This document shows, piece by piece, positions 19,841 through 50,626 of a DNA stretch of 64,000 bases (positions are counted from its first letter, which is position 1; every line of letters starts with the position of its first letter). The position numbers and the translations under genes were made by a program. This stretch comes from Halomonas sp. CH40 (GTDB lineage: Bacteria > Pseudomonadota > Gammaproteobacteria > Pseudomonadales > Halomonadaceae). The DNA lies in contig CP112982.1 in assembly GCA_041875495.1 (NCBI GenBank), forward strand, positions 1,674,001-1,738,000, given 5' to 3'. The notes under the pieces were generated by a model. That model ran no database searches and had not been told where the DNA came from. It was given only the letters and a program-made list of their open reading frames with translations.

Positions 19841-20701
19841 ATGAAAAAATCAACAACTGGCTTGCTCATTGGATCGGCACTGGTAGTAGGTCTTTCTGGT
19901 TGTGCAAGTTCTGCTTCACAGTCAGCTAACTCGGCGTCTGCGAGTTCTGGTAGCGGTATGCACCCATTCGTATGCGGCCTGGCAGGCAGTGTCATCGGTG
20001 GTGCCATTGGATATTCAACCAGCGGTAATTCTGATGAAGACGAAAACACCCTGGTAGGTGCAACTGCTGGTGCCGCAATTGGTGGCCTATTGTGTGCAGA
20101 TCGTACTGTCAAAGCTGAGCCGCAGTGCCCGAGCTACGGCGCTGTCCCTGCTGGTGCAGCTGTAGACGCAGAAGGCTGCCCGCTGGATTCCGATGGTGAC
20201 GGCGTTCCGGATTACCGTGACCAGTGCCCAGGAACACCAGCCGGTGTTTCCGTGAATGCTAATGGTTGCCCGGTCGATTCCGATAATGACGGTGTTCCAG
20301 ATTACCGTGATCAGTGCCCGGATACTCCGGCAGGCGTTGAAGTCAACTCTCTGGGTTGCCCGGATGCTCTGGTACTCGAAGGCGTTAACTTCGAGTTTGA
20401 CTCCTCGCGACTGACAGCAGACGCACAGCAGGTTCTGCGTACTGTAGCAGAGCGTCTGGTCAATAATCCTAATGTCCGCGTCAGCATTGAAGGCCATACC
20501 GATTCACGTGGTAGCGCTGACTATAACAAGCGCCTTTCACAGAGCCGCGCTGAATCTGTTGCCGCTTACCTGAATCAGTTGGGCGTCAGTGCTGATCGCA
20601 TGATGGCTACCGGCTACGGTGAAGAGCGCCCGGTTGCCTCTAATGATACTGCCGCAGGCCGTGCTGAAAACCGTCGTGTTGAACTGGATGAGTGGAACTA
20701 A
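19841..20701 (+). CDS. OmpA-family lipoprotein with calcium-binding-type repeats
   Basis: 286 residues. A lipobox LSGC gives C21 as the lipidated residue. A glycine-zipper segment follows (about 42-90, GSVIGGAIGY and GATAGAAIGG). Two thrombospondin type 3-like repeats DSDGDGVPDYRDQCP and DSDNDGVPDYRDQCP lie at about 115-160. The C-terminal OmpA/Pal domain (about 180-286) has FEFDSSRL and the peptidoglycan-binding EGHTDSRGS. It probably anchors the outer membrane to peptidoglycan. The ATG follows AAGGAG. A strong terminator follows, so it is monocistronic. Confidence 0.88.
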   Translation: MKKSTTGLLIGSALVVGLSGCASSASQSANSASASSGSGMHPFVCGLAGSVIGGAIGYSTSGNSDEDENTLVGATAGAAIGGLLCADRTVKAEPQCPSYGAVPAGAAVDAEGCPLDSDGDGVPDYRDQCPGTPAGVSVNANGCPVDSDNDGVPDYRDQCPDTPAGVEVNSLGCPDALVLEGVNFEFDSSRLTADAQQVLRTVAERLVNNPNVRVSIEGHTDSRGSADYNKRLSQSRAESVAAYLNQLGVSADRMMATGYGEERPVASNDTAAGRAENRRVELDEWN

Positions 20702-20748
20702 TCCCCTCAGGATTATTCTTATCTATCTTGTTTAGGCGATAGTTGATC

Positions 20749-20782
20749 AAAACGCGGAAGGCCATATGCCTTCCGCGTTTTT
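20749..20782 (+). terminator. Terminator after the OmpA-family gene
   Basis: The stem AAAACGCGGAAGGC/GCCTTCCGCGTTTT with a short CATAT loop and a T-run is also A/T flanked on the other side. Confidence 0.85.
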
Positions 20783-20907
20783 GTTGATAGTTATTGATTG
20801 CCTTGCTTTATCCAGATGGTGAGTTTTGCTACCATGCCGCACTGCAACGTGTGGCTGTTTTCTTATTACCTCGAACACGTTTTACTGATACCCATTGATA
20901 GCGATAT

Positions 20908-20928
20908 GTGACCCTTGGTGTGGGTCAC
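20908..20928 (+). promoter_or_regulatory. thrS translational operator: tRNA-Thr anticodon-arm mimic
   Basis: A 7-bp stem GTGACCC/GGGTCAC closes a 7-nt loop TTGGTGT. Counted as an anticodon loop, U is at position 33 and GGU at 34-36, the anticodon of tRNA-Thr(GGU). The core ACCCTTGGT..GGGT matches the E. coli tRNA-Thr(GGU) anticodon arm, as I recall it, at 13 of 15 positions. It lies 24 nt before the thrS ATG. E. coli ThrRS represses its own mRNA by binding such a mimic near the ribosome binding site; the same is inferred here. Confidence 0.7.
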
Positions 20929-20952
20929 CACTGCGCTCAAGGAATTACCCGA

Positions 20953-22875
20953 ATGCCTATTGTGACTCTGCCTGATGGCAGCCAACGTGAATTTTCCGAG
21001 CCGCTTTCTATCATGCAGCTGGCAGCATCTATTGGCCCTGGTTTGGCCAAAGCCTGCATTGCTGGCAAGATTGACGGCGAGCTGGTAGATGCTGCAGACC
21101 TGATCGAACGTGATGCCAAAGTGGCTATTATCACGGCTCGCGACCAGGAGGGGGTAGAGATCATTCGCCACTCCTGCGCTCACCTGATAGGTCATGCAGT
21201 GAAGCAGTTATACCCCAATGCAAAAATGGCCATTGGTCCGGTTATTGATGACGGCTTCTATTACGATATTGAATTTGCTGACTCAATCACGCCGGATGAT
21301 CTGACGGCGATTGAAGCACGGATGAAGGTGCTGATTGATCACGAATACGACGTTGTTCGTGAATATGTTGATCGTGATAAGGCCATGCTGACCTTCCTGC
21401 ATCGTAATGAGCCTTACAAACAGGAAATTGTACGCGATATTCCTGAAGAGGCCGCTATTCGCCTCTATCATCATGAAGAATACACCGATATGTGCCGTGG
21501 GCCCCATGTGCCCAATACGCGCCACCTGAAAGCCTTCAAGCTGACCAAGTTGGCGGGTGCCTATTGGCGGGGTGATGCTGAAAATACCATGTTGACGCGT
21601 ATTTACGGTACAGCCTGGGCCGATAAAAAGCAGCTTAAAGCCTATTTGCTGCGTCTTGAAGAAGCAGAAAAGCGTGATCACCGTAAGCTGGCGCGAAAAA
21701 TGGATCTTTTCCATTTGCAGGAAGAAGCGCCAGGCATGGTGTTTTGGCACCCCAATGGCTGGATCATGTACCAGGCGCTTGAAGAGTACATGCGCAAAAT
21801 CCAGCGTGAACATGGCTACCAGGAAATCAAAACGCCGCAGGTCGTTGATTTATCGCTGTGGAAGAAATCTGGCCACTGGGGGCACTACAGTGAGCTGATG
21901 TTCACCACGGAGTCCGAAAAACGCGAATATGCCGTCAAGCCGATGAACTGCCCCTGTCATGTTCAGGTCTTTAACCAGGGGCTGAAGAGTTACCGGGATC
22001 TCCCTCTGCGTCTTGCCGAGTTTGGCAGCTGCCACCGTAATGAACCTTCTGGCTCTTTGCATGGTCTGATGCGGGTGCGCGGTTTTACTCAGGATGATGC
22101 GCATATCTTCTGTACCGAAAGCCAGATCCAGAAAGAGGCTGAAGCCTTCATCGCCCTGACGCTGGAAGTCTACAAGACGCTGGGCTTTGAAGACGTTGAA
22201 CTCAAGCTTTCAACGCGGCCAGAAGATTTTCTGGGAGAGGCCAAGCTTTGGGATCGAGCCGAACAGGGGTTGGAAGCCGCTTTGGAAGCGACTGGCCTGG
22301 AGTGGGAGCTACAGCCCGGTGAAGGAGCCTTCTATGGGCCGAAAATCGAGTTCGCGTTGAGAGATTGCCTGAATCGTGTCTGGCAGTGTGGTACCTTACA
22401 GCTGGACTTTAATTTACCAGGGCGCCTGGGCGCTCAATTTGTCGATGAAGATGGTGTACGTAAAACGCCTGTCATGCTTCATCGTGCAATTCTGGGTTCT
22501 TTTGAACGCTTCCTGGGTATTCTGATTGAGCATTATGCGGGTGCTATGCCTTTATGGCTTGCTCCACAGCAAGCTGTCATCATGACAATTACTGATGCTC
22601 AACGTGAATATGCGTTAAACTTGGAAAAACGTTTGCAAAAAAGTGGTCTTCGGGCCAATGCGGACTTGAGGAACGAGAAAATCGGCTTTAAAATCCGTGA
22701 GCATACGTTACAGAAAGTTCCCTATCTCCTTGTGGTAGGAGATAAGGAAGTTGAAGCTGACTCAGTGGCCGTACGTACACGTAGCGGCGAAAACCTCGGC
22801 ACCATGACGATTGATGAACTCATCAAACGCCTTGAGGTAGAGAGAGCAGCCCTGGCGACATCGTCAATTGCCTAA
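20953..22875 (+). CDS. thrS: ThrS, threonyl-tRNA synthetase
   Basis: 640 residues (E. coli 642). It charges tRNA-Thr and edits mischarged seryl-tRNA-Thr. Domains: TGS (1-61, beginning [10 protein letters not shown]), second additional/editing domain with [10 protein letters not shown], class II catalytic core with zinc-binding [10 protein letters not shown], and the C-terminal anticodon-binding domain. The start is the ATG at 20953, matching the family N-terminus, with AAGGA upstream. A frame opening at 20908 is not used because it would run through the operator hairpin. First gene of the thrS-infC-rpmI-rplT-pheST-ihfA cluster. Confidence 0.97.
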
Positions 22876-22887
22876 GGAGACGGAACG

Positions 22888-23427
22888 ATCAAGCGAAGCA
22901 ACCAGCGTGGGCGTCCACAAGAAAAACGCCCCCCAATGAACGAGAGAATTACCGAAACTGAAGTGCGCCTCATCGCCAGCGATGGTGAGCAGTTGGGGGT
23001 TGTACCCACAACTGAAGCGCTTGAGCGCGCTGAAGCAGAAGGTATGGATCTTGTGCAAATTTCCAATGCCGATCCGATTGTTTGCAAGATCATGGATTAC
23101 GGTAAATTTGTTTTTGAGCAGAAGAAGCAGAAAGCTGCTCAGAAAAAGAAGCAGAAACAGATTCAGGTCAAGGAAGTCAAATTCCGGCCTGGCACCGACG
23201 AGGGTGACTATCAGGTGAAGTTGAAAAACCTGATCCGATTCCTTGAAGGTGGTGACAAGGGGAAAGTCACATTGCGTTTTCGTGGTCGTGAAATGGCGCA
23301 CCAAGACATTGGCCGCAAGCTGATGGAAAGGATAGCCTCAGACCTCGAAGAGATCGGAACGGTTGAAGCCTTCCCGAAAATGGAAGGCCGCCAGATGATC
23401 ATGATCCTGGCCCCAAAGAAGAAGTGA
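22888..23427 (+). CDS. infC: InfC, translation initiation factor IF-3 (AUC start)
   Basis: IF-3 binds the 30S subunit, keeps subunits apart and monitors start-codon pairing. With an ATC start at 22888 the product has 179 residues, the family length (E. coli 180). AAGGAGA lies 6-7 bp upstream of this ATC, and the next residues [14 protein letters not shown] form the basic N-terminus expected. The first ATG (22936) would remove 16 residues and has no ribosome binding site. E. coli infC uses AUU, which lets IF-3 repress its own translation; AUC should act in the same way. Gap to thrS is 12 bp. Confidence 0.92.
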
Positions 23428-50396: not shown

Positions 50397-50600
50397 CGCG
50401 CTTGCGGGAGAGATTGCTTTCGATCTTGTCATCATGCATCGAAGCAGCGCCAAAGGAGCAACCGCCCCGGAAACTCTCAGGCCCCCGGACCGTCTGCGCG
50501 AAAACTTTCCGGAGAGCGGCTGATGTCTGCGTCATTCAGTCCACCGAAGGAGCAAACAAGCCCATGGCTTGCGAATCTCTCAGGTTAAGGACGGAAGGGG
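50397..50600 (+). promoter_or_regulatory. Tandem glycine riboswitch
   Basis: Two glycine aptamers lie in a row. Aptamer 1 (about 50404-50505) has GCGGGAGAG, CAAAGGAGCAA and CTCTCAGG. Aptamer 2 (about 50507-50600) has CCGGAGAG, CCGAAGGAGCAA and CTCTCAGG. The linker is short, as in cooperative tandem glycine riboswitches. It controls the dadA-like gene 50 bp downstream. Confidence 0.9.
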
Positions 50601-50601
50601 C

Positions 50602-50626
50602 ACACACCTAACCCGTGTGTTTTTTC
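50602..50626 (+). terminator. Riboswitch expression-platform terminator
   Basis: ACACAC (50602-50607) pairs with GTGTGT (50615-50620), followed by a T-run, right after aptamer 2. Glycine binding would be expected to influence this hairpin, giving control by premature termination. The stem is short (6 bp), so its strength is uncertain. Confidence 0.55.

Follow-up and report, generated by a model that had tools for sequence, protein, structure and literature searches.

In this study, we asked whether the hairpin that precedes thrS, the gene of threonyl-tRNA synthetase (ThrRS), in Halomonas sp. CH40 is an operator through which the enzyme controls its own translation and, if so, which tRNA-Thr it imitates. 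The thrS operator is a textbook example of molecular mimicry that has been studied in E. coli, and its conservation in other gammaproteobacteria has already been remarked on. The locus lies in the window, i.e., the whole stretch of 64,000 nucleotides that was analysed. The imitation of a tRNA-Thr anticodon arm in this leader very probably serves ThrRS in turning down its own production. The mechanism is known from E. coli; what this leader adds is a well-supported case of a known operator type together with a correction that concerns position 34 of the loop.

The hairpin in the thrS leader

The hairpin reads GTGACCC-TTGGTGT-GGGTCAC, with its 5′ arm at 20908-20914 and its 3′ arm at 20922-20928 (Table 1). 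This is exactly the sequence for which the initial annotation had claimed the geometry of an anticodon arm with U33 and GGU at positions 34-36, the GGU being located at 20917-20919, and the distance that it had given was found as well, 24 nt separating the end of the hairpin from the ATG at 20953. The hairpin is no chance fold; on both strands of the window, a loop of 7 nt with T33 and with GT at positions 35-36 was closed by seven Watson-Crick pairs at this site only, and when the plus strand was shuffled 100 times with its dinucleotides preserved, such hairpins numbered 0.07 per shuffle on average. The covariance model R1, in which there is no gene information, matched at 20905-20934 of the window with 41.9 bits, and in the genome of the strain the match at thrS had an E of 1e-8, while the next best reached 0.18. 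The comparison of related leaders that had been proposed as a check favoured the operator, with a mean majority fraction of 0.97 in the 30-nt core compared with 0.43 at 24-60 nt upstream of the hairpin (31 leaders, the window's and its closest relatives; the alignment was ungapped, so indels lower the second value), and the 20 nt directly upstream of the core reached 0.84.

The product of the downstream gene scored 747 bits against the TIGR00418 equivalog (cut-off 384), and its residues 1-630 aligned with residues 1-631 of the solved ThrRS 1qf6 (945 bits), which we take to be the E. coli enzyme. The nearest named relatives were members of Halomonas with 90% (H. alkaliantarctica, now under Vreelandella at NCBI), 88% and 87% identity. 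The gene that follows thrS is infC.

Table 1. Features of the thrS leader and gene in the window
Feature	Position	Strand	Basis or remark
5′ arm of predicted basal stem (CCATTGATAGCG)	20892..20903	+	fold; conserved in close relatives
Anticodon-arm-like hairpin, 7 bp and 7-nt loop; by sequence an orthologue of thrS operator domain 2	20908..20928	+	sequence, covariation, R1
Loop UUGGUGU	20915..20921	+	U33 20916, N34 (G) 20917, G35 20918, U36 20919
Conserved 3′ flank CACUG	20929..20933	+	core column 27 (C) at 20931
3′ arm of predicted basal stem (CGCTCAAGG), overlapping the Shine-Dalgarno sequence	20934..20942	+	fold prediction
Shine-Dalgarno sequence AAGGA, 9 nt before ATG	20939..20943	+	four of five bases predicted paired
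thrS, coding for the 640-aa threonyl-tRNA synthetase; target of the regulation, its product presumably the repressor	20953..22875	+	TIGR00418

Relation to the E. coli operator

The comparison with E. coli that the initial annotation had made also held, the K-12 operator having the loop TTCGTGT; the leader reads GTGATCT-TTCGTGT-GGGTCAC and continues with CACTGC. When compared with domain 2 of this operator, the Halomonas hairpin was equal in 27 of the 30 core bases; of the three that deviate, two are in the stem and the third is loop position 34, which is G here and C in E. coli. Both have a 7-bp stem, a 7-nt loop with U33, G35, U36, G37 and U38, the flank CACUGC and a location before thrS, with the operator ending 21 nt before the ATG in E. 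coli K-12 and 24 nt in Halomonas. By this likeness, and with homologues found in between, the hairpin is orthologous to domain 2 of the thrS operator of E. coli K-12, of which 1kog is presumably the solved complex, and the label “ThrRS operator” is supported by homology.

The mechanism of the E. coli operator is described in four papers (PMC11088916, PMC7373986, PMC9976931, PMC3858243), and the binding of two anticodon-like hairpins is also given among them. Related observations come from yeast, in which mRNAs with anticodon mimics are bound by HisRS or ThrRS (PMC6542539, PMC9956033). As is probable in our case, a synthetase meets an anticodon-like element in an mRNA there, but the yeast mimics belong to another domain of life and are not bacterial operators before a Shine-Dalgarno sequence.

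Distribution of the operator

No survey of thrS operators across the gammaproteobacteria was among the literature matches listed, as judged by their titles and the beginnings of their abstracts. The 110 leaders that we compared comprise 80 taken from named records and 30 of the same genus as the window, the latter being the best 30 among 60 genomes in which ThrRS was matched. A candidate was obtained in 105 of them; four (L033, L066, L094 and L099) were judged spurious and one (L109) was corrected by hand, and a sound hairpin was thus accepted in 101 of the 110. It was present in all 30 same-genus leaders (the best 30 of 60), with GGU in each, and the named carriers include Pseudomonas, Acinetobacter, Psychrobacter, Marinomonas, Aeromonas and Psychromonas as well as Photobacterium, relatives of Idiomarina, Superficieibacter and Proteus. 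The nine leaders without a sound hairpin were L033, L066, L087, L094, L099, L101, L104, L110 and L111; L066 stems from a Moraxella metagenome genome, and L104, L110 and L111 are Methylococcales, all three of which lacked the hairpin. A search of these nine with R1 at E 5 returned nothing except a remnant of 8.9 bits in L033 (Halomonas sp. NO4). At positions 1458-1485 of that leader, the loop and the 3′ flank are kept and the 5′ arm is broken, and the element is perhaps a decayed operator.

At the level of the class, R1 matches were found in 112 of 369 genomes at E 0.01, and 109 of them lie before thrS while three do not. Because R1 knows nothing of the gene, this tie counts as evidence. The class figures given below refer to these 109 thrS-linked operators, of which 84 were linked by script and 25 by reading; the other 257 genomes had no match, under filters that become stricter above 40 genomes and lose weak matches. 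Of the 349 genomes sampled across the phylum, 69 had a match, and no thrS was found downstream of the three matches labelled as lying outside the class (G473, G509 and G532). In the family sample, a match was found in 115 of 121 genomes at E 0.1, or in at most 114 after dropping G794, with thrS linkage having been checked for part of these matches. G794 was the sole match of genus g440, from which six genomes were sampled, and was judged false; hence, the genera with a match number at most 23 and not 24 of 24.

Other genes under the same element were considered on the basis of second matches. Nine of these (in G186, G324, G420, G749, G763, G845, G846, G792 and G015) had no thrS downstream, nor did the only match in G794, and all ten were taken as chance; seven of the ten non-thrS matches lie inside a same-strand open frame of at least 60 aa. 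A further second match, in G855, had an E of 0.03. An intergenic copy of the operator hairpin was observed in G365 (L191:1996-2025), similar in sequence to the thrS leader of the same genome, and no same-strand open frame of at least 60 aa starts within 600 nt of this copy.

Position 34 and the imitated tRNA

The anticodon arm of the genome's own tRNA-Thr(GGU), CACCC-TTGGTAA-GGGTG, shared 13 of 15 bases with the leader when 4+7+4 nt were compared and 13 of 17 when the comparison was widened to 5+7+5 nt, with five of the seven loop bases matching, compared with three of the same 15 bases for the arm of tRNA-Thr(UGU), so the likeness that the initial annotation had seen is real. The geometry is that of the leader hairpin; loop positions 37-38 are AA in the tRNA as opposed to GU in the leader, and the outer stems are unrelated. 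When all 60 tRNA matches of the genome were typed, the tRNA-Thr were GGU and UGU and tRNA-Thr(CGU) was absent, which makes GGU a natural state locally. G34 was found in 33 of the 34 Halomonas-like leaders and C34 in one (L034).

An operator that is tuned to one isoacceptor, i.e., one that copies tRNA-Thr(GGU) and senses its supply, could explain a GGU loop that agrees in 13 of 15 bases with the arm of the genome's own tRNA-Thr(GGU) where tRNA-Thr(CGU) is missing, and it would suit a review table in which G34 is given as one of the Thr identity elements of bacteria (PMC9976931). The operators depart from this listing, however. Position 34 was C in 62, G in 32, A in eight and U in seven of the 109 class operators, so all four bases occur and the CGU loop of E. 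coli is one state of four. The tRNA-Thr genes were tested in 45 of the 109 genomes (all eight with A34, all seven with U34, 12 of the 32 with G34 and 18 of the 62 with C34), using a sequence pattern with a gap of 12-18 nt (14 in the genome's own tRNA-Thr(GGU)) together with ARAGORN, a test in which absences are soft; the C34 pattern was run on all 45 and the A34 pattern on 19 genomes. The genomes with a confirmed tRNA-Thr(CGU) were 12 of the 18 with C34, four of the 12 with G34, two of the eight with A34 and all seven with U34, and one further pattern match in the G34 genome G222 was not a tRNA according to ARAGORN. The presence of tRNA-Thr(CGU) had no significant tie to C34 in these 45 genomes (12 of 18 compared with 13 of the 27 remaining ones; P 0.36 in Fisher's test, uncorrected for kinship, with a pattern that can miss genes). 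The comparison of C34 with G34 genomes leaned toward tracking (12 of 18 and four of 12; P 0.13, also uncorrected for kinship). Moreover, there are A34 operators although tRNA-Thr(AGU) was confirmed in none of seven of the eight genomes that carry them. Tuning to one isoacceptor is therefore improbable.

The initial annotation had named the GGU isoacceptor as the one apparently imitated, and this part of its reading was not supported, given the four states of position 34 and the lack of tracking of tRNA-Thr(CGU); the thrS operator that it had claimed is upheld by the orthology, the covariation described below and the class matches at thrS. Any of the four bases can stand at position 34, but positions 35-36 are invariant (G35-U36 in 109 of 109 class operators), so the hairpin is a mimic of N-G-U. 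The simplest reading of the position-34 data would be that ThrRS reads N-G-U.

In the eighth A34 genome, G199, a tRNA-Thr(AGU) was found in a small tRNA cluster (L447:1330-1544), in which the A34 tRNA-Thr(AGT) is accompanied by a short tRNA that was called Ser(AGA). We think that such a cluster is unusual for a gammaproteobacterium.

Covariation, fixed bases and probable mode of action

Covariation of the stem was analysed in alignment A1, which comprises 43 of 48 non-redundant cores; L006, L024, L048, L051 and L102 were left out, and L006, L024 and L102 have one unpaired stem position each. Paired cells made up 97.7% of the A1 stem compared with 83.0% in shuffles and 30-56% with slid partners, and there were 45 double-changed cells compared with 11.7 in shuffles. 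None of 500 shuffles reached the covariation score of A1, a control that is open to inflation by kinship, while the slid controls keep kinship. A weaker measure, the number of pairs changed on both sides, gave five compared with 3.2, and 33 of the 500 shuffles reached five. The pair formed by columns 5 and 23, which is invariant in A1, was T-A in 89 and C-G in 20 of the 109 class operators; this change is compensatory and was not used for building R1. The loop-closing pair was unpaired in 39 of the 109, with C-C in 18.

Besides G35-U36, the C at core column 27 was present in all 109 class operators, and U33 and the 3′ flank CACTG were each found in 101; position 37 was A in 97 and G in 12. The census thus separates the fixed bases, which are G35, U36 and the C in the flanking CACU, from the variable position 34. 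If the hairpin were a mere secondary structure that influences translation or the stability of the mRNA and is not bound by ThrRS, its location close to the Shine-Dalgarno sequence and its good folding (z -2.45) would be in line with this. Such a structure would not combine a covarying stem with G35-U36 in every class operator and with U33 and CACTG in 101 of 109, however, and we consider it very unlikely. A leader-peptide attenuator or a T-box-like element, which the location in a synthetase leader might bring to mind, is hardly credible, as none of the Rfam families attained its gathering score in the region of the thrS leader, the in-frame extension from GTG at 20908 has two separate threonine codons and no run of them before the thrS start, and the one terminator-like site in 20690-20960 lies upstream of the hairpin (20836-20855). 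A weak match of RF00506 (thrABC leader) in the genome was set aside, since by eye it sits at a terminator.

We are confident that the hairpin acts as the translational operator of thrS, with repression by free ThrRS, competition with tRNA-Thr and no strict reading of position 34. By analogy with E. coli, free ThrRS in Halomonas would bind the hairpin via its anticodon-binding domain and read G35 and U36 as it does in tRNA-Thr, with the base at position 34 probably not being read strictly. Bound ThrRS would block the access of the 30S subunit to the Shine-Dalgarno sequence that follows closely, and plentiful free tRNA-Thr would draw the enzyme away and allow thrS to be translated.

A substitution in the 5′ UTR of E. 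coli thrS, at position 1,802,589 of NC_000913.3, is reported in one study for the three strains of a single population that was kept in ceftazidime and borrelidin A, and its authors propose, as a hypothesis, that autoregulation is reduced (PMC13148393). By our mapping, the substituted base is that of core column 27 and precedes the E. coli thrS ATG by 19 nt.

Predicted basal stem and layout of the operator

Below the hairpin, a basal stem is predicted in the Halomonas leader whose sequence is unlike that of E. coli and which would extend into the Shine-Dalgarno sequence, where the predicted unpaired probability at 20939-20942 is 0.02-0.09. A basal stem of at least 4 bp was found in 33 of the 34 Halomonas-like leaders compared with 7.4 expected, these leaders being near-identical copies. 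As a general feature, it was not supported, the class count of 35 of 109 not being above chance (31.5 expected).

In the Halomonas-like leaders, no counterpart of E. coli domain 4 was detected beyond chance (an upstream GT-loop hairpin in one of 34, 0.45 expected) with a blunt test that also fails to flag L105, a relative of E. coli. Upstream GT-loop hairpins were counted in six of 109 leaders of the class sample and in 36 of 67 named non-Halomonas leaders, with 2.25 expected in either case. Twenty-five of the 36 belong to Pseudomonas (L039-L065, L082), are near-copies of one hairpin and could be terminators. Possible counterparts of domain 4 lie upstream of domain 2 in L199, L320, L339 and L346 and among the Pseudomonas candidates. 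Tandem operator-like hairpins were observed before thrS in L199 (G414) and L320 (G318), their starts being 37 and 33 nt apart, respectively; this form accounts for two of the 109 class operators, and both genomes are of one genus. Extra anticodon-like hairpins upstream of the operator, with the loops TACGTAA and TGCGTAT, were seen in L339 (G351) and L346 (G244), each genome having one and perhaps two of them, the second recognised by eye. These forms suggest that the layout of the operator varies among gammaproteobacteria.

Tentatively, we propose that Halomonas may have a compact one-hairpin operator in which the N-G-U mimic is stacked on a basal stem that hides the Shine-Dalgarno sequence, and in which ThrRS would lock the mRNA fold instead of bridging two hairpins. 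Both the covering of the Shine-Dalgarno sequence and the action through one hairpin instead of two are predictions only. If this were true, the one-hairpin form would be one end of a series that leads via the two-hairpin form of E. coli to the tandem and possibly triple forms. What ThrRS reads in the RNA and whether one hairpin suffices for control are testable predictions.

Neighbouring genes and other elements

No consensus site of a thrS promoter was found in 20690-20960. The terminator-like hairpin at 20836-20855 has a T-rich tail and separates the operator from the OmpA-like gene that precedes it. On inspection by eye, L003, the nearest relative, carries a similar sequence, and most of the other leaders from this genus do not.

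A second type of ThrRS gene, 60-62% identical to the query, was found in 10 of the 61 same-genus genomes searched (L261-L270), and in the incomplete genome G041 it was the only type found. No R1 operator was detected in front of this gene in any of the 10 stretches, the sole weak match (L270, E 0.16) being inside the gene.

Elsewhere in the window, a glycine riboswitch aptamer was observed at 50499-50604 (57.5 bits). Downstream of thrS, the infC frame is already open at an ATC codon at 22888-22890, which lies 8 nt after AAGGAG (22874-22879) and 48 nt before the first ATG. In E. coli, infC has a rare AUU start that serves the autocontrol of IF3, and by analogy the ATC start may be the same device.
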